A stretch of 64,000 nt of DNA, taken from NCBI RefSeq assembly GCF_009882945.1, contig NZ_WTUY01000005.1, forward strand, positions 537,863 to 601,862. Direction: 5' to 3'. A model generated the notes under the pieces. That model was not told the DNA's origin. It did not search any database and saw only the letters and a list, made by a program, of their open reading frames with translations. This stretch comes from Alcanivorax sp. DP30. Its GTDB lineage: Bacteria; Pseudomonadota; Gammaproteobacteria; Pseudomonadales; Alcanivoracaceae. Below are positions 13,488 through 22,944 of the stretch, one piece after another. The position numbers and the translations under genes are program-made. Each line of letters begins with the position of its first letter. Positions within the stretch are counted from its first letter, which is position 1.

Positions 13488-14045
13488 TCAATCGTCACTG
13501 GGGCGTCGCTGCAGGGGGGCAATGTCCTGACAGCGTACCGGGAATTTGCCGCTTTCCAGATCTTCGATATAGAAACGCAGGGTACGGCCAATGGTGGGGA
13601 AAGCCAGTTCGTCCCAGGGAATCTCGTCCAGCGAAAACAGCGCGGCATCACTGCTTTCCTCACCAACGCCATATTTGCCATCCTCGATACGTCCTAGGAA
13701 AAACACATACACCTGATTGATATGTGGCAGATTAAAAACAGTGTAGAGGTCGTCGATGGCGACGGTGGCGCAAGCCTCTTCCCAGGTTTCCCGCGCAGCC
13801 CCTTCCTGCAGTGTCTCACCATTTTCCATAAAGCCGGCAGGAAGGGTCCAATACCCTTTTCGCGGCTCGATGTCTCGCTTGCACAGCAGGACCTTGCCTT
13901 GCCAGATTGGCACGGCCCCCACCACAATTTTGGGGTTTTGATAATGAATAGTCTGACATTTTTCGCACCAATAGCGCGGACGGTTATCCCCCTCCGGGAT
14001 ACTGAAATACAGGTCAGGGTTGCCACATTGGCTACAAAAACGCAT
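13488..14045 (-). CDS. Nudix hydrolase with N-terminal zinc ribbon
   Basis: 185 residues. Four cysteines form a zinc ribbon (Cys4, Cys7, Cys27, Cys30). A Nudix box follows at about 71-93 ([16 protein letters not shown] then TWEEAC), with the Gly, Glu and REx2EE positions in place. Such zinc-ribbon Nudix proteins hydrolyse nucleotide sugars or dinucleotides such as ADP-ribose or NADH; the exact substrate is not evident. The gene is divergent from csgD but unlikely to belong to curli biogenesis. Confidence 0.88.
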
Positions 14046-14342: not shown

Positions 14343-15017
14343 ATGGATGTTTCAATGGCGCATGGAACGCGTGACGAAAGCAAGGCGTATTTGGTGGTAT
14401 CGCACTGTAATAATCTTGCCATCCGGCTTCTGGCCAGATCCATCGAAAACCAGCGTGGGGTGGCCTGCACAGCGATTACCCGGGAAGACCTTTTCTGTGA
14501 CCAGATTCAGGATGACCTGGTTCTGATTAATGTTCTGGATTTCTCTGCCTCGGAGATAGAGCGATTGCTCGGGCGGGTCCAGGAAAAGATGCCGATGTGC
14601 CGGGTGATTCTGGTCAACGCTGATCGCGGCGATAATATCTTTTTCTTGTTGAACTGGCCGATCGTGAAAGGTGTTATCTATCAGCAGGACAGCGATGCCC
14701 TTATCTCAAAAGCCATAGATGTGGTCTGCAAGGGCCGTAGCTGGTTTCCGCGTAACTACATGGATTACCTGGTACGTCATCGCAAGACGCCGACGCGTTG
14801 CGGCCATGTTTTCGAGAGTCTTACCGGTCGTGAGCGACAGGTGCTGGACCATGTGGTGCGAGGGATGAGTAATCATGAAATCGCCGATGCCCTCTGTTTG
14901 AGCACGCATACCATCAAGGCTCATCTTCAAAGCCTGTATCGCAAGGTCGGGGTAAAGAACCGCGTAGGAGTAATGCGCTGGGTTCACGAAAACCACCTGG
15001 AAGAAGAAGGGGGTTGA
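14343..15017 (+). CDS. csgD: CsgD-type LuxR-family master regulator of curli
   Basis: 224 residues. The N-terminal half is a receiver-like domain; the segment NWPIVKGVIY corresponds to NWPHINGVFY of Escherichia coli CsgD. The C-terminal LuxR helix-turn-helix (about 158-215) includes LTGRERQVLDHVVRGMS, then NHEIADALCLSTHTIKAHL, and ends KVGVKNRVGVMRW, close to the CsgD end. CsgD activates curlin genes and is linked to c-di-GMP control in enterics. A ribosome-binding site (GGGGAAGAG) precedes the ATG. It heads csgDEFG; csgE follows within six bases. The regulatory DNA upstream holds two palindromes. Confidence 0.93.
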   Translation: MDVSMAHGTRDESKAYLVVSHCNNLAIRLLARSIENQRGVACTAITREDLFCDQIQDDLVLINVLDFSASEIERLLGRVQEKMPMCRVILVNADRGDNIFFLLNWPIVKGVIYQQDSDALISKAIDVVCKGRSWFPRNYMDYLVRHRKTPTRCGHVFESLTGRERQVLDHVVRGMSNHEIADALCLSTHTIKAHLQSLYRKVGVKNRVGVMRWVHENHLEEEGG

Positions 15018-15022
15018 GACCC

Positions 15023-15427
15023 ATGTTGCGGCGCGTCCTGCTTGGGGTTGTGTTGCTGGTATTCTCAGGGGCAATCACTACCGCGCTGGCATCGGATCAG
15101 GAAGGTGAAATGGGGGTCGTTGTAGACCAGACCATAACGCCTATAGGTAAACGATTTCATCAGCAGTTTTCCTATCAGAGACATTATCTCTACCCGGATA
15201 CCCCCTACTCGGTGAGTATCCATGAGCAGCCATCCGCAAGGAGTGGCAGCATTATTACCATCAGGGGAGCAGACACCCAGATTGCCCGGTTCGTGCTGTC
15301 ATTTGCGTCGAACTGGGAGGACGCACGCGTTCAGAGTCTGGTTCAGTCCGTTGAGAGTCAGGTCAGGCGTCTCAAACTGCTGAATGCTCTTGTCGATAAC
15401 CCGGACCTGGCCAAGGATGGCTACTAA
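15023..15427 (+). CDS. csgE: Curli secretion adaptor CsgE
   Basis: 134 residues from ATG 15023, with a signal peptide (about 1-23, ending ALA). The mature protein contains HEQPSARSGSIITI, matching NERPSARWGSWITI of Escherichia coli CsgE, and ends in DNPDLAKDGY, matching the family end. CsgE is a periplasmic factor that forms a ring capping the CsgG pore and delivers subunits. It is five bases after csgD, and its stop overlaps the csgF start by one base. Confidence 0.95.
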   Translation: MLRRVLLGVVLLVFSGAITTALASDQEGEMGVVVDQTITPIGKRFHQQFSYQRHYLYPDTPYSVSIHEQPSARSGSIITIRGADTQIARFVLSFASNWEDARVQSLVQSVESQVRRLKLLNALVDNPDLAKDGY

Positions 15428-15834
15428 TGAAAACCCTGTTGAGTATTGTCACTGGCTGTCTGCTTGCCTGTGGAGTGACGGCAAGCGAGTTGGTGTATCA
15501 GCCTGTGAATCCCAATTTCGGGGGAAACCCCCTGAACGGTTCTTATTTGCTGGGTAACGCCCAGGCGCAGAATGATTACAAGGACCCTGAAGCCCGGTCT
15601 TCAACTTTCGAGCGCCCCTCCGAGCTGGAGCGACTGACGTCATCTCTGCAGTCGCGGCTGTTGAGCCAGCTGCTTGCGGATGTAGGGGAGGGGAACGAGG
15701 GGAGTATCGTGACGGATGATTTTGCGATCAACATCGTTGACGATCAGGGCGTTCTTTCCATTCTGATTGAGGATATTAACACCGGGGAAGTGACGCAGAT
15801 TGAAGTCGACGGACTGGTCCCGGACACATTTTAA
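15427..15834 (+). CDS. csgF: Curli assembly factor CsgF
   Basis: 135 residues with a signal peptide (about 1-19). The mature N-terminus has the hallmark NPNFGGNPLNGSYLL followed by AQAQNDYKDP, which in CsgF inserts into the CsgG channel, and the C-terminal part VTDDFAINIVDDQG matches the family. CsgF sits at the cell surface and couples secretion through CsgG to nucleation on CsgB. It overlaps csgE by one base and is 21 bases from csgG. Confidence 0.96.
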   Translation: MKTLLSIVTGCLLACGVTASELVYQPVNPNFGGNPLNGSYLLGNAQAQNDYKDPEARSSTFERPSELERLTSSLQSRLLSQLLADVGEGNEGSIVTDDFAINIVDDQGVLSILIEDINTGEVTQIEVDGLVPDTF

Positions 15835-15855: not shown

Positions 15856-16692
15856 ATGCAACCGTATCTATGTCGTCTGGCGACAGTGGGGATTTTGGGC
15901 CTGTCGTTGGCCGCTTGCGTAACACCACCGCTGGATCCTGAAGCTCCGACGCTGCTTGAGAAGTCAGAGGTTGCCGAGGATCTTGAAATGCTTCCGGCGC
16001 CAAAAGGCAGAATCATGGCATCGGTCTACAGCTTTCGCGATTTGACGGGGCAATACCGCCCTGCGCCATCTTCATCGTTTTCCACGGCGGTCACACAGGG
16101 TGCGGCGGCCTTTCTGATCGATGCTCTAAACCGTTCGGGCTGGTTTCTGACTCTGGAGAGGGAAGGGCTTCAGGATCTTCTGACCGAACGCAAGATCGCA
16201 CGGGCTGTGGTGGAAAAGCGACAAAAAACCGGGCAGGCAGTGCCGGATGTACCGGATCTGTTTTCCTCCGACATTCTTTTTCAGGGCGGCATTGTCGCCT
16301 ATGAAACCAACCTTAAAACCGGCGGCCTGGGAGCGCGTTATCTGGGAGTGGGGGCTTCCGAGCAGTACAGAACCGACCAGGTTACGGTGAATCTGAGGGC
16401 AGTTGATGTACGAACCGGGCGTATCATCAATACTGTCTCTACTCGCAAGACCATTTACAGCAAGGAGCTCCAGGTCGGGGTTTATCGATACATCGACTTC
16501 AAGGAGCTGCTGGAAAGTGAAGCTGGGGTGACCACCAATGAGCCTGTCCAGCAGTGTGTGAAGCTGGCCATTGAGGCTGCAGTGGCGCACCTGATCGTCA
16601 AGGGCGTAATGGATGGCAACTGGCAGCTTCAAAATCCCGATGACATGGGCGCAGAGGTCATTCAGCAGTACAGCGCGGCATTTGGCAACTGA
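15856..16692 (+). CDS. csgG: Curli secretion channel lipoprotein CsgG
   Basis: 278 residues, the normal CsgG length. The lipobox LAAC places the lipidated Cys at 21. The family segments SVYSFRDLTGQYRPAPSSSF, FLIDALNRSGWF, ERKIARA and GGLGARYLGVGASEQYRTDQ are all present. CsgG forms a nonameric beta-barrel in the outer membrane through which unfolded curlin subunits diffuse. It is the last gene of csgDEFG and ends facing the curlin block on the other strand. Confidence 0.97.
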   Translation: MQPYLCRLATVGILGLSLAACVTPPLDPEAPTLLEKSEVAEDLEMLPAPKGRIMASVYSFRDLTGQYRPAPSSSFSTAVTQGAAAFLIDALNRSGWFLTLEREGLQDLLTERKIARAVVEKRQKTGQAVPDVPDLFSSDILFQGGIVAYETNLKTGGLGARYLGVGASEQYRTDQVTVNLRAVDVRTGRIINTVSTRKTIYSKELQVGVYRYIDFKELLESEAGVTTNEPVQQCVKLAIEAAVAHLIVKGVMDGNWQLQNPDDMGAEVIQQYSAAFGN

Positions 16693-16938: not shown

Positions 16939-17361
16939 TTATCTTGTAGGCGGATACTCCCTGTTCACCTGGGAAACCACTACGTTCTCGCTGTTACTTA
17001 GCGAGGCATTGACTCTCACCGTATCAGTGGGGGTGACATTGATTTTTACGTTACCTACCACGAGCCGTTTGGAATCGATGGTTATTCTTCCCGACTGGCT
17101 GGTCTTGCTGGTGCCGCTTTTTCCCAGTTTCTCTACTTCAATCCGGTAGGTGAATATGCTCCCGGTATCCTGACATTCCAGTTCAAGCTGAAACTGGTGA
17201 AGATCCGCAGAGGGTTGGTTTAGGATGTGAAGAGTGCATGGCTCCCCTTGAGGTACGGCTGGCATGGCGTACGCTCCTCCGTAAGAAAAGACGAGTGAAA
17301 GCGCCATAAACAGGCGAAGAAAGCCGGGAAATGGCGAATCAAAATTGATGGACCGTGGCAT
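16939..17361 (-). CDS. csgH: CsgC/CsgH-type curli chaperone (amyloid inhibitor)
   Basis: 140 residues from ATG 17361, with a signal-peptide-like N-terminus ending near GGAYA. The C-terminal part (KTSQSGRITIDSKRL, then VKINVTPTDTVRVNASLS and VSQVNREYPP) aligns by eye with Escherichia coli CsgC, whose end is LSLNISPDDRVKIVVTVSD and LSQQWPP. CsgC and CsgH are periplasmic beta-sandwich proteins that stop premature curlin aggregation. Two cysteines (in EPCTLH and LECQDTG) could pair. The start lies inside the last codons of the upstream curlin gene, so translation is probably coupled. The choice between the csgC and csgH names is uncertain. Confidence 0.85.
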   Translation of the reverse strand: MPRSINFDSPFPGFLRLFMALSLVFSYGGAYAMPAVPQGEPCTLHILNQPSADLHQFQLELECQDTGSIFTYRIEVEKLGKSGTSKTSQSGRITIDSKRLVVGNVKINVTPTDTVRVNASLSNSENVVVSQVNREYPPTR

Positions 17362-18013
17362 TGTTTCCTGCTCCGTACTGAATGACTCTGCCCATATTGT
17401 TGAAGCCTGATGGCTGAATAATGATGGCGCTATTGCCATGACTGATATCAGCTGATGATTGTTGATGAATATGAGCTGAATTGTCTGAACCACCTTGGAT
17501 AATGTCTGCTTCATTGCCGGTACCGAATTGTTCTGTCTCGGCAAGAAGATTATTCCCACCGATTTGTACGGTTTCAGCACGGGAAAGAGGCGCCATTTCC
17601 TGCGCTGTCTGCGCCAGGCTGCCTGTAGTGTTGGTTTGTGTAATCCCCGCCATGCTATTGGCAGTCTGCTCCTGGTCTACATGGGCTTCGGCAAGGTAGG
17701 TACTGGATTGATCGATGACTGCCCGGGAATCCTGCCCATTGGACTGATCAATCCTGCCGCTACTCTCAACGCTGTCATGCTGATGGATGCTGGCCCTGAA
17801 TCCTTTGGTGTTTTTTTGCATTATCACTGCCGCGTTAGCGGCGCTTCGGGTCTGGGTAATAAGGACCAGACTTTCCTGGCTATTTTCCTGGTGGGAATCT
17901 GCAGAATCATGTGAGCCTTCCTGAACAAGGATGGCGGCATCATTGTCTGCCAGTACTGGGCTGGAAACGGACAGCAGCAGGACAGCAATAATCGCAATGC
18001 TTTTCGCTTTCAT
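17339..18013 (-). CDS. Curlin-repeat protein, 224 aa (additional subunit or nucleator)
   Basis: A signal peptide (about 1-22, ending VLA) is followed by roughly 17 strand units of the curlin type, each with a Val/Ile-x-Gln core (VDQ, IDQ, ITQ, IIQ, VIQ). Spacing is mostly 12 residues rather than the classical 11, and the Gly/Asn turn residues are less regular than in CsgB. The end, GRVIQYGAGNNATVHQF, resembles a curlin C-terminal unit. It could be a minor subunit, a second nucleator or a fibre cap. It is the penultimate gene of the minus-strand block and overlaps csgH by 23 bases. Confidence 0.8.
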   Translation of the reverse strand: MKAKSIAIIAVLLLSVSSPVLADNDAAILVQEGSHDSADSHQENSQESLVLITQTRSAANAAVIMQKNTKGFRASIHQHDSVESSGRIDQSNGQDSRAVIDQSSTYLAEAHVDQEQTANSMAGITQTNTTGSLAQTAQEMAPLSRAETVQIGGNNLLAETEQFGTGNEADIIQGGSDNSAHIHQQSSADISHGNSAIIIQPSGFNNMGRVIQYGAGNNATVHQF

Positions 18014-18187: not shown

Positions 18188-18227
18188 ATTGAGAAAAAGA
18201 GAAAGGCCGGGTATTGCGCCCGGCCCT
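18188..18227 (-). terminator. Rho-independent terminator after the 472-aa curlin gene
   Basis: Read on the minus strand, GGCCGGG-7-CCCGGCC is followed by TTTCTCTTTTTCTC. It separates the large curlin gene from the downstream 224-aa curlin and csgH. Confidence 0.8.
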
Positions 18228-18253: not shown

Positions 18254-19672
18254 TTAGTTCTGATTGATCAGCGCGTTGTTGCCGCCACCGCCAGCCTGGA
18301 AGATGGATGCTGTATCCATGGTTGAGGACTGGAGAATGGTTGCAACGTTTTCGTTGCCGGAAGCGCCAATGCCGCTCTGCTCGATGTAAGCCCAGTTGTC
18401 CGGACCGCTCTGATCGATAGTGGCGATGCCATATTCGGCGGATGCGGTCTGTTCAACTTCTGCATAGTTATCGACATCAGTCTGATCAATATCGATTACA
18501 CCATTGCCGCCATGGGAGTGCGCCTGAGCGTAGTTTCCGGATGCGGACTGATCAACCATGGCCACGTTGTCGGAGCCGGACTGATCCACTTCAGCTTCGT
18601 TGCCATTGCCGGTCTGGGTGACGGTGGCGTCGTTGCGATCGCCAAGGCCCTGATCCACATTTGCAATGTGGTCATCACCACTCTGGTCAACACTGGCGCT
18701 ACTTTCCCAGGAGCCTTGCTGATCAATGTCAGCCATGTTGCCGCTGTCCGTCTGTGTGATCATTGCGGAAGAGAGCCCGGAGAAGTTCTGGGTGACGGTG
18801 GCAGTGTTGCCCAGACCGCTTTGATCAACGGTGGCATCTGATGCGAATGAGATATTGGTCTGGCTCACGCTGGCGGTGTGACCGAAACCAGTCTGATCCA
18901 CATCAGCGGTGGCAAAGCTGGACAGGGACTGGTCAACAGTGGCTGTTAGGCCGCCACCAGCCACTTGATCCACTGTTGCAACATTGCCGGCACCAAAGGA
19001 CTGGGTCACAGTTGCGGTTGAGAAGGAATCAACCAACTGGTTGATGGTGGCGGAAGATCCCGCTGTGGCTGTCTGGGTAATGCTGGCATCGGCTACCGCA
19101 GCCAGGCCCTGATTGATGGTTGCATCTGAACCGATGGAATCGGTCTGGGTGATGGTGGCATCAACGAAGGCATCCAGATTCTGGTTCACGGTCGCCGTAT
19201 TAAAGGCCCCCCCGTCCTGGGTGATGGTGGCATCAGCATCAAGGGTGCCGGTTTGGGTTACAGAGGCGTCGGAACCAAATGATCCCCCTACCTGGTTAAT
19301 GGAAGCAGAAGAACTGGCAAGATTCCCTTCCGCATCATCTTGATCGATGGACGCGCTGTTGGCGTTACCAACCTGCACAACTGAACCTTCAACAGAGGCG
19401 CTGGAGTTTTGGTTGATGACGGCACTATTGTCGTTGCCGGTAGTATCAACAGAAGCAGTCTGAGTATCGCTGCTGTTGGTCTGCAATACATCGGCGCTAT
19501 TGTTGTCCCCAACCTGGGAGACTGTAGCGTCATTGAAATCCGTGTTGGATTGAGTGGTCGTTGCAGTGTTGCCACTGCCCGTCTGGCTGGTTGTTGCGGT
19601 GTTGCCTGCGGCGTAGGCGCCGGAGGCAAGAGCCAGGGTGACGGCGGCTGCGATAGGCTTGATTATGTTCAT
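18254..19672 (-). CDS. csgA: Very large CsgA-like curlin, 472 aa
   Basis: After a signal peptide (about 1-21, ending AYA) the whole mature chain is curlin-type repeats: about 38 strand units by eye, each with Ser/Thr/Asp-Val/Ile-x-Gln and spaced 11-13 residues, for example TVTQTGNGNEAEVDQSGSDN. Escherichia coli CsgA has only ten such strands. Unit 5 has SVDTTG and unit 31 has HSHGG in place of the Gln core. The C-terminal region (AEYGIATIDQ, ATILQSS, NNALINQN) matches the 399-aa paralog upstream, so they are duplicates that differ in repeat number. It should be secreted through CsgG and form amyloid fibre. The gene has its own AT-rich upstream region and a terminator on each side. Confidence 0.92.
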   Translation of the reverse strand: MNIIKPIAAAVTLALASGAYAAGNTATTSQTGSGNTATTTQSNTDFNDATVSQVGDNNSADVLQTNSSDTQTASVDTTGNDNSAVINQNSSASVEGSVVQVGNANSASIDQDDAEGNLASSSASINQVGGSFGSDASVTQTGTLDADATITQDGGAFNTATVNQNLDAFVDATITQTDSIGSDATINQGLAAVADASITQTATAGSSATINQLVDSFSTATVTQSFGAGNVATVDQVAGGGLTATVDQSLSSFATADVDQTGFGHTASVSQTNISFASDATVDQSGLGNTATVTQNFSGLSSAMITQTDSGNMADIDQQGSWESSASVDQSGDDHIANVDQGLGDRNDATVTQTGNGNEAEVDQSGSDNVAMVDQSASGNYAQAHSHGGNGVIDIDQTDVDNYAEVEQTASAEYGIATIDQSGPDNWAYIEQSGIGASGNENVATILQSSTMDTASIFQAGGGGNNALINQN

Positions 19673-20200
19673 TTTCCCTTCTCCTCATATTTGGCATGCA
19701 TCCTGCGACCCGAGGTCTTACTTCTTGTCTTGAATCGCACAAGATTAATTGTGATAGAGATCAAGAAAATTAAGTATTGCTCCGCGAGACCAATTTATTT
19801 TTTTAAAAATAGGTCTGCGAGTTAGGCAAAAATATACAAGGGACCAGGAGTGTGCTTCTTCATCAAAAGCGGAGATGAGAATTATTTTAAGACGCTAATG
19901 GATGACGTTGTTGTCAAGGTGTTAATGAGTGGGATGAGTTAGCGCATGTCGATAATGAGAGTGGGGTATTTAATATGGTTTCTTTTCTGTAAGTGCTTGA
20001 GATGTGGAGCGTAAAGGGTTGTTGTTTAAACATTAAAATTTCTTTGTGCTTGGCATTGTTTTGGATGTGAAGTTTATTGTTAATAAACTGTCGCCAATGG
20101 GAGCTTGAATGGTGGGCTGAAAGATAAATGATTCAGGACTGAACATTCACAAAAAAACCGGGCCACCAAAGGGCAGCCCGGTTTTCTGGAAACGCTGAAA
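19673..20200. other. AT-rich 528-base gap between the two large curlin genes
   Basis: No gene is visible. Except for the terminator of the upstream curlin gene at its right edge, the stretch is markedly AT-rich (for example 19740-20100) compared with the surrounding DNA. It must contain the promoter and leader of the 472-aa curlin gene. AT-rich DNA of this kind is typical of sites bound by H-NS-like proteins or IHF; that is inference. Confidence 0.5.
20151..20185 (-). terminator. Rho-independent terminator after the 399-aa curlin gene
   Basis: Read on the minus strand, AACCGGGC pairs with GCCCGGTT and is followed by TTTTT. It lies 15 bases beyond the curlin stop codon. Confidence 0.85.
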
Positions 20201-21400
20201 TTACATTTGTGTAATGGAAGCGTTGTTCCCTGCGCCGCCGTACTGGCTGATGCTTGCGGTGTTGGCATCAGAGCTTTGCAGGATGGTGGCAGTATTCGGA
20301 TCAATGCTGGTGCCCAGGCCGGTCTGCAGGATATCGGCTGTATTCCCTGCGCCAGTCTGTTCGATGGAAGCGATCCCATATTCAGCCGGGGCTGTCTGGT
20401 TGATATAGGCAGAGTTGCCAGTGTTACTTTGCAGAATGGTAGCTTCACCATTGCCGCCCCACTGATCGATATCGCCGCTGTTGTTATCGCCGGACTGGGT
20501 GACGGTGCCCACGTTATCAGAGCCTGACTGCTCAATTCGACCGTAGTTCATGTCACCGGTCTGAGTGAGGGTGGCCAGGTTGCGGTCGCCAAGACCCTGA
20601 TCCACTTCACCAATCAGGTTGGTGCCATTCTGGTCAACGTAGGCTTCCGAATGATGGGATTCATCCTGAATCACGTCGGCCATGTTGTTGGTGCCCTGTT
20701 GCATGACGTCAGCGAAGGCATAATCAGACACGTTTTGCTGGCTCACGCTGGCAGTGTTGCTGTCGCCGGTTTGCTCTACATAGGCTTCTGAAAAGTCACT
20801 GTCGCTCTGGTTGACCGTGGCAGTCAGGAAGTCGCCATCATGCTGGTTAACGTTGGCAATGCTCCCTTCACCATTGGTCTGGGTGATGGTGGCAGAAGAA
20901 TCATCAGCGAATGTCTGGTCGATGTTGGCGTTGGCATTCAGGGTGGCATCCTGAACAATCACTGCGTTGTTATTGTCCGCCCCGAGCTGAGTAATTGTCG
21001 CCACGGAGGAATCGCTGCCGCCCACCTGGGAGATGGAGGCAGAGGTGTTGTCAGAGGTGAGGGTCTGGCTGATATCGCCGCTGTTGTTGTTGCCATCCTG
21101 TTCAATAGTGGCAGAGGCGAACCAGCTGTCGTCCTGCACGATGCCGGCATGGTTGTCATTACCAACGGTATCAATGTCCGCCATCATGGGGTTGACGCTG
21201 TTGGACTGGCTTACATCGGCGTTGTTGTTGTCGCCGGTCTGGTCAACGGTGGCAACGGCACCATCGACCGCACTTTGGGTGGTGCTGGCCGTGTTGTTGT
21301 TGCCCGTCTGGTTGGTGGTAGCGGTGCTGCCTGCAGCAAAGGCGCTACCGGTTGCAGCGGCCAGAATCGCGATTGCCAAAGGCTTCATTACAACTTTCAT
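20201..21400 (-). CDS. csgA: Large CsgA-like curlin, 399 aa
   Basis: A signal peptide (about 1-22, ending AFA) is followed by about 32 curlin strand units with Val/Ile-x-Gln cores at 11-13-residue pitch, for example TVTQSGDNNSGDIDQWGGNG. As in its 472-aa paralog, unit 5 has DIDTVGNDN instead of a Gln core, and both contain QGLGDRN, AEYGIA and ATILQSS in the same order near the C-terminus. AGGAAGAG precedes the ATG at 21400. The gene lies 49 bases downstream of csgB, so csgB-csgA is probably one transcript, closed by the terminator at 20151-20185. Confidence 0.93.
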   Translation of the reverse strand: MKVVMKPLAIAILAAATGSAFAAGSTATTNQTGNNNTASTTQSAVDGAVATVDQTGDNNNADVSQSNSVNPMMADIDTVGNDNHAGIVQDDSWFASATIEQDGNNNSGDISQTLTSDNTSASISQVGGSDSSVATITQLGADNNNAVIVQDATLNANANIDQTFADDSSATITQTNGEGSIANVNQHDGDFLTATVNQSDSDFSEAYVEQTGDSNTASVSQQNVSDYAFADVMQQGTNNMADVIQDESHHSEAYVDQNGTNLIGEVDQGLGDRNLATLTQTGDMNYGRIEQSGSDNVGTVTQSGDNNSGDIDQWGGNGEATILQSNTGNSAYINQTAPAEYGIASIEQTGAGNTADILQTGLGTSIDPNTATILQSSDANTASISQYGGAGNNASITQM

Positions 21401-21449: not shown

Positions 21450-21983
21450 TCAGTCCCATTGTTTAATGGAGACATACATTCCGGCCCCGTACTGGGTTAC
21501 CGAAATACTGTTGGCCGTGCCGTTTTGCGAGATCGCGGCATGGTTTCCAATTCCGTCCTGGTTTACGCGAGCGAAGTTGTCCTCTCCGATCTGCTCGATG
21601 GTGGCGGTGTTGTAATGGCCTTTCTGGTCGATAGCAGCGGAGTTGCCGATTCCGTATTGGGACACTACGGCAAGGTTTTCCCAGCCGAGCTGGGTGATAT
21701 CGGCATCCTGATTGGTGCCGTATTGAATGACGTCGGCCTGGTTGCCGTAGCCCTTCTGCATGATGCGGGCATTGTGGTCATAGCCCGTCTGAGAGACTGA
21801 GGCGGCATTGTTGCCTGTCTGGTGAATGTAGGCTGTCAGGTCTGCCCCTGTCTGGGAAATGTCTGCTTCGTTATGAAGCGGTATCTCATCGAATAATGAT
21901 AGGTCGCCGGCCTTGCTCTGCATTGTAATGAGCAATAGCAGAGTGACGATGATTCCGGGGCCTATTCCTAGCCCGATATGCAT
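21450..21983 (-). CDS. csgB: Curlin nucleator CsgB
   Basis: 177 residues with a signal peptide (about 1-25, ending SKAG). The mature chain has 13 strand units with a very regular 11-residue period (ISQ, IHQ, VSQ, IMQ, VIQ, ITQ, VSQ, IDQ, IEQ, VNQ, ISQ, VTQ, IKQ); the second unit is one residue short and the last is truncated. The end VTQYGAGMYVSIKQWD resembles the C-terminal unit of Escherichia coli CsgB, where charged and hydrophobic residues replace the turn. CsgB anchors to the surface and templates CsgA polymerisation. It is the first gene of the minus-strand curlin block. Confidence 0.87.
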   Translation of the reverse strand: MHIGLGIGPGIIVTLLLLITMQSKAGDLSLFDEIPLHNEADISQTGADLTAYIHQTGNNAASVSQTGYDHNARIMQKGYGNQADVIQYGTNQDADITQLGWENLAVVSQYGIGNSAAIDQKGHYNTATIEQIGEDNFARVNQDGIGNHAAISQNGTANSISVTQYGAGMYVSIKQWD

Positions 21984-22347
21984 GATCTCGTCCCTGATAA
22001 TTTTCGTTCCTCGCGATTTAGTCTTGCGCTATTCCCCTGTGGTTGTAATTCGCCATGAGTGCCGAATTTAAAAGCGGCAACCTAGCTCCGAGGTGTAAGA
22101 AAAAACATGGCGCGGCCAGCGTCGCTACGTTGTTTGAAAATCCTGAGTCCATCTGGGACGGTAAAACACGGTTGTTGTTGCAAGAGGAGGGTGTAGCCGC
22201 AAGGTGTAGGAGATATGCCATGGCCATTGTAGCCAGCGTGTAACAGCGCTAAGTGAATCGGTGAAGGCTTGTCGATGATCGACAGACTTGCCGACAGGGC
22301 GGCAGCTGTTCAAACTGTCGTTTGAATCGTCGGTTCTGGAGAGTGTT
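21984..22347. other. Intergenic region between csgB and nudL
   Basis: About 360 bases in the gap between the divergent csgB and nudL genes. No convincing gene is present; the short frames here lack coding character. It should carry the promoter of the csgB-csgA unit on the minus strand. Confidence 0.45.
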
Positions 22348-22944
22348 GTGCTCGACTTGCTCAGGCAGCGGTTGCCTGATTATCAACGCACGGAGTTGCC
22401 CCTGGCGCTGCCAGAGGCTGCGGTACTGATGCCGCTGGTGGACAGCCCAGAGCCTCGGGTTATCCTTACCGTGCGCTCCAGTTCCATGCCGACCCACGCG
22501 GGTGAGGTGGCCTTCCCCGGCGGCAAGCGGGATCCGGGGGACAAGAACCTGTTGATGACGGCCCTCAGGGAAAGTGAAGAAGAAGTGGGGCTGGACAGGG
22601 CCTACGTGGATGTCCTGGGTCAGTTGTCGCCGCTGGCTTCCCGCTATGGCATGAAGGTCACGCCCTTTGTCGGCATTGTGCATCCCGATGCCCAGCTACA
22701 GGCTGAACCCGGTGAAATCGAGACCATCTTTCAGGTGCCGCTGGGCTTTTTCCTGGATGAGAAGCCGGAGCTGTCCAGCCCCATTGATTTCTTCGGGCGC
22801 CGTTTCCGGATACCCAGTTATTACTATGAAGACAAGCGAATCTGGGGGCTGACGGCCTTCATGATTCTGGATTTGATCAACCACGTATACGATGCCGGTA
22901 TCGAGTTTGATGTAAGCCACTGGCCGGCAGACAGGGAACAATAA
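22348..22944 (+). CDS. nudL: CoA pyrophosphatase (NudL-type Nudix hydrolase)
   Basis: 198 residues from GTG 22348, chosen because GGAGAG lies seven bases before it and because family members begin with a short helix at this point; an in-frame TTG at 22288 would add 20 unconserved residues. The family signature LTVRSSSMPTHAGEVAFPGG leads directly into the Nudix box (GGKRDPGD then RESEEEVGL). NudL-type enzymes cleave CoA to phosphopantetheine and 3',5'-ADP. It is two bases upstream of the gamma-carbonic anhydrase gene. Confidence 0.9.
   Translation: MLDLLRQRLPDYQRTELPLALPEAAVLMPLVDSPEPRVILTVRSSSMPTHAGEVAFPGGKRDPGDKNLLMTALRESEEEVGLDRAYVDVLGQLSPLASRYGMKVTPFVGIVHPDAQLQAEPGEIETIFQVPLGFFLDEKPELSSPIDFFGRRFRIPSYYYEDKRIWGLTAFMILDLINHVYDAGIEFDVSHWPADREQ

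Follow-up and report, generated by a model that had tools for sequence, protein, structure and literature searches.

The window that we analysed, a 64,000-nt stretch of the Alcanivorax sp. DP30 genome, carries a complete curli cluster made up of csgDEFG, a CsgB-like curlin, two long curlins, a fourth curlin and a gene for a CsgH-type chaperone. The plus strand holds a csgD-like gene, csgE, csgF and csgG. The minus strand, read from right to left, encodes the 177-aa CsgB-like curlin, the 399-aa, 472-aa and 224-aa curlins and the 140-aa CsgH-type chaperone (Table 1). A whole-genome search showed that curlin matches are confined to this cluster. The gene for the 177-aa curlin lies 49 nt upstream of that for the 399-aa protein; its best NCBIfam match is the CsgB model, at a score below the cut-off of that model, and an orthologue is present in 8 of 8 related csg loci of the same genus. 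The 177-aa curlin is likely the nucleator. At the other end of the curlin genes, the position of the 224-aa curlin is also occupied by a curlin in four genomes of the genus (G006, G007, G008 and G016), and the end of its gene is overlapped by the start of the CsgH-type gene by about 20 nt.

The 140-aa protein passes the NCBIfam CsgH model (NF041112; 35.9 bits against a cut-off of 35), with Pfam scores for both CsgH and CsgC that fall under the cut-off. Searched against the PDB, a profile of its family matches CsgH (2n59, E 5e-5) and CsgC (2xsk, E 0.001). Two cysteines, C10 and C31, are invariant in the family and stand 21 residues apart; a widely spaced Cys pair is the CsgH pattern (PMC4838910). 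The CsgH-type chaperone here occurs alongside csgD, csgE and csgF in a gammaproteobacterium, and it is kept in all eight related clusters of the genus. A hairpin scan gave six matches, of which the one listed in Table 1 is the strongest, and their total was not above that of shuffled sequences. Since promoter and terminator scans returned the shuffle background, we claim no operon structure from them.

Table 1. Genes and other features of the curli cluster, in window coordinates
Feature	Position	Strand	Evidence
Nudix-type gene bounding the cluster on one side	13488..14045		
csgD-like LuxR-type regulator	14343..15017	+	NCBIfam CsgD best match 2.9e-29, below equivalog cut-off; GerE domain
csgE	15014..15427	+	Pfam CsgE 1.2e-16
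csgF	15427..15834	+	Pfam CsgF 9.6e-32
csgG, outer-membrane secretion channel	15856..16692	+	Pfam CsgG 1.5e-71
CsgH-type periplasmic amyloid-inhibitor chaperone, 140 aa	16939..17361	-	NCBIfam CsgH, PDB profile matches, Cys pair
Fourth curlin, 224 aa, ~16 strand units, more degenerate	17339..18013	-	Pfam Curlin_rpt 6e-12; segmentation
Terminator-like hairpin just 3' of the 472-aa curlin gene	18203..18227	-	9 pairs, 7 GC; weak evidence
Long CsgA-type curlin, 472 aa, 38 strand units = 19 full curlin repeats, AHSHGGNGVIDIDQ subtype	18254..19672	-	
Long CsgA-type curlin, 399 aa, 32 strand units = 16 full curlin repeats	20201..21400	-	
Short CsgB-like curlin, 177 aa, 13 recognised strand units	21450..21983	-	Pfam Curlin_rpt 4.7e-30
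Conserved gene bounding the cluster on the other side	22288..22944		

Repeats and predicted fold of the two long curlins

We segmented the long curlins by dynamic programming with a seven-residue motif (N-x-A-x-V/I-x-Q) trained on curlins from related loci. Counting by eye, the original prediction had given about 38 strand units to the 472-aa protein and about 32 to the 399-aa protein, and the segmentation returns exactly these numbers. A strict count of Val/Ile-x-Gln falls somewhat below them because the totals take in two N-terminal Thr-x-Gln units and one or two degenerate units that lack the Gln. The pattern A-x-hydrophobic-x-Q occurs 32 times in the 472-aa protein and 24 times in the 399-aa protein. 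Over 1000 shuffles the means are 1.0 and 0.7 and the count never exceeds 5, so the repeats lie far beyond chance. As one curlin repeat consists of two strands (PMC10192328), the right description of the two proteins is 19 and 16 repeats, respectively. In the segmentation the repeats fill the mature chain of both, from about residue 23 to a one-residue tail and with no other domain, and judged from the sequence each is predicted to begin with a signal peptide.

The proposed pitch of 11-13 residues holds for most steps but fails for one or two steps of 16 residues per protein, where the arc is longer. We rejected variable pitch as an unusual trait, since arcs of 4-6 residues are typical of the family. 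In 11 of 11 long curlins of the genus, unit 5 ends in D-T and lacks the terminal Gln, which interrupts the Gln ladder at a conserved place. An arc of 9 residues near the C-terminus, between units 35-36 of the 472-aa protein and units 29-30 of the 399-aa protein, stands at the same place in every long curlin and also in the 224-aa one. Units 31-32 of the 472-aa subtype include a conserved, degenerate, His-containing strand (AHSHGGNGVIDIDQ), whereas the unit at this place is regular in the 399-aa subtype; the strand is possibly a metal- or pH-sensitive spot.

Both proteins match Pfam Curlin_rpt (PF07012) at 1.2e-36 and 4.1e-36 (124.8 and 123.1 bits against a cut-off of 20.7), and both carry the motif of that family, a tandem N-x-psi-x-psi-x-Q found twice per ~23 residues. 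Their best PDB sequence match is 8c50 (E 2.8e-26 for the 399-aa protein and 4.9e-26 for the 472-aa protein), followed by E. coli CsgA (8enq). Pfam, the PDB sequence matches and the complete csg cluster agree that the proteins are CsgA-like, as had been proposed. Against the NCBIfam equivalogs CsgA (NF007470) and CsgB (NF007506), the curlins score 102-123 bits, where the cut-offs are 160-165. By these scores and the NCBI rule, the proteins in the window are curlins and not orthologues of enterobacterial CsgA or CsgB.

AlphaFold2 models, built from alignments of only six orthologues and paralogues, place strands over 38 of 38 units in the 472-aa protein (pLDDT 86.1, pTM 0.86) and over 32 of 32 units in the 399-aa protein (pLDDT 87.9, pTM 0.84). 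AlphaFold2 is over-confident for repeat sequences and invents confident beta-solenoids for perfect repeats (PMC11795689). Because of this bias, we sought independent support in core charge, conservation and PDB sequence matches. The motif positions predicted to face inward (1, 3, 5 and 7) hold 1 and 0 charged residues, compared with 18.2 and 12.5 expected from shuffles within the motif. Among orthologues, identity is 85-100% at core positions and 38-91% at surface positions. These results support a predicted two-sheet beta-solenoid with an uncharged steric-zipper core in both long curlins. The stacked beta-solenoid that had been expected for them is borne out by the modelled strands, the conservation of core positions and the sequence match to 8c50, and structure prediction showed no contrary fold.

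Foldseek searches of both sparse-alignment models against the PDB returned mostly right-handed beta-helices. Of the two models, one recovered 8c50 at E 5.9 and the other not at all. Curlins modelled from sparse alignments often come out right-handed, whereas the fibres are left-handed (PMC10192328), and the poor recovery of 8c50 is likely due to wrong handedness of models built from a six-row alignment. We left the Foldseek results out of the evidence, both for and against the curlin fold.

Long curlins in the genus and beyond

The original prediction expected a subunit far longer than the known curli protomer, which holds against E. coli CsgA with its five repeats but not against curlins already published. 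Dueholm et al. 2012 described curlins of up to 22 repeats and 529 aa outside Enterobacterales (PMC3521004). Sleutel et al. 2023, who modelled more than 2500 curlins, reported CsgA homologues whose repeat number runs from 4 to 62, with secondary peaks around 15 and 22, together with a 7.6 Å cryo-EM volume of a 15.5-repeat curlin (8C50) that has a 72 Å step (PMC10192328). In a sample of Pseudomonadota, curlin repeats are present in 45 of 398 genomes, and at least 16 of those 45 contain curlin frames of at least 400 aa, measured stop to stop, with up to 779 aa among the matches listed. A literature search on curli in Alcanivorax found nothing specific to the genus. The observation of long curlins is right and the novelty of their length is wrong: the two proteins are new members of a well-described curlin class. 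They carry little weight as a discovery, since long curlins are frequent and their structure has been characterised before; the only points worth passing on are the frozen pattern of the ends with a variable middle, and the two length classes in one cell. Separately, an 823-aa curlin-like protein of Ulvibacter antarcticus (L014:5291-7762) has around 63 strand units, of which many are weak.

Curlin repeats were found in 9 of the 17 genomes of the same genus that we searched, the source genome being one of the nine. The eight others show synteny across the csg cluster and the genes on either side of it, so the curli system as a whole was not recently imported. Together the nine genomes encode eleven long curlins, which range from 396 to 503 aa and have 32, 34 or 38 strands, an even number in every case. 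All eleven share one spacing pattern in the first 7 and the last 14 steps, and length differences sit in the middle, as whole two-strand repeats. We regard it as rather doubtful that the frozen ends define how a subunit docks onto CsgB/CsgF and onto the following subunit, and that the cell builds mixed fibres of 16- and 19-repeat subunits. Within the set, the source genome stands out only by carrying a long curlin of both C-terminal subtypes, one of each. The 399-aa protein groups with long curlins of four genomes (G012, G004, G014 and G016), and the 472-aa protein with two copies in G007. The long curlins of G014 and G016 (L049 and L050) combine a C-terminal half of the 399-aa subtype with a middle that resembles the curlins of other genomes, and this mosaic structure suggests recombination between curlin genes.

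Proposed role of the two subunits

Very probably, the 399-aa and 472-aa proteins are ordinary long-form CsgA-type major curli subunits of a complete, vertically kept curli system. The analysis shows the repeats, strand count, core conservation, gene cluster and homology; secretion, nucleation, fibre geometry and function we infer. By homology to curli, the long curlins would leave the cytoplasm unfolded by Sec, the CsgH-type chaperone would hold off their aggregation in the periplasm, and secretion would proceed through the CsgG channel with CsgE and CsgF, with the CsgB-like 177-aa curlin nucleating the fibre at the surface. Templated by the fibre end, each subunit would then take up the fold of a two-sheet beta-solenoid with 16 or 19 rungs. 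At 4.8 Å per repeat, the fibre would gain about 77 Å with each 399-aa subunit or about 91 Å with each 472-aa subunit; the longer step per subunit that had been proposed is therefore to be expected from the modelled fold. According to the published stacking rule, subunits with complete repeats stack head to tail by translation and the 15.5-repeat protein stacks with a 2-fold screw (PMC10192328). The even strand number of both long curlins therefore predicts plain head-to-tail stacking with no 2-fold screw.

We rejected as unsupported the accompanying idea that greater length makes fibres stiffer. A stiffer fibre is not implied because the cross-section of the fibre would be independent of repeat number. 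The 2023 structural paper contains no data on stiffness or persistence length (PMC10192328), and Dueholm et al. 2012 merely speculated about stability and rigidity (PMC3521004).

Alternatively, the two proteins could have specialised roles, one being the major fibre subunit and the other a second fibre type, a cap or a minor component of mixed fibres, such that length matters functionally. We consider this unlikely. It would suit the coexistence of divergent paralogues (51% identity) with different lengths and C-terminal subtypes; however, most curli-bearing genomes of the genus have one long curlin only, which means that two are unnecessary. Also in its favour, the two G007 copies share 81-83% identity with the 472-aa type, and searches of the other seven curli-bearing genomes gave no close match to this type, but two copies of the same subtype in one genome fit plain duplication. 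While the 528-nt intergenic gap between the 399-aa and 472-aa genes favours separate roles, the identical end spacing suggests that the two proteins can stack on one another.

It is highly improbable that the long curlins are surface adhesins whose repeats share the curlin motif and that they form no curli proper: some large adhesins do carry curlin-like repeats (Dueholm 2012, PMC3521004), but here the signal peptide is followed by repeats up to the last residue, with no other domain, and the genes lie within a full csg cluster with csgE, csgF, csgG and csgH. Least probable of all is that these are decaying repeat genes without function, to which the handful of degenerate units, among them strand 5 with its missing Gln, might point, because that strand is itself kept in every long curlin of the genus, the frames are open in all related genomes, and a low dN/dS among orthologues (~0.06-0.19, with dS partly near saturation) together with near-invariant core positions places both genes under selection. 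As ordinary major curli subunits, a 16- and 19-repeat pair with even strand numbers in one cell could serve to test the prediction of screw-free stacking and the co-polymerisation of subunits that differ in length.

Comparison with known curli systems

The chaperone resembles CsgH of R. palustris (PDB 2N59) in adjoining curlin genes, in its distant Cys pair and in sequence match, although the identity between the two is low. With the csgBAC/csgDEFG system of E. coli, including CsgA (PDB 8ENQ), the window shares the repeat motif, csgD, csgE, csgF, csgG and a nucleator-like curlin. It differs in having four curlin genes rather than two, subunits of 16 and 19 repeats rather than 5, and a chaperone of the CsgH type rather than the CsgC type. 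The long homologues of CsgA that Dueholm et al. 2012 described belong to the same size class outside Enterobacterales as the window proteins; the main text of that paper does not mention Alcanivorax (PMC3521004). R15.5, the CsgA of Pontibacter korlensis (A0A0E3UX01, PDB 8C50; Sleutel et al. 2023), for which there is a cryo-EM-based model, is like the window long curlins in being long (15.5 repeats, 31 strands) and acidic and in having similar cores in both motifs. It comes from Bacteroidota and has a pI of 2.98, whereas the window proteins come from Gammaproteobacteria and have a pI of ~4.05. R15.5 has an odd number of strands and ends in a half repeat; the strand numbers of the window proteins, 32 and 38, are even.
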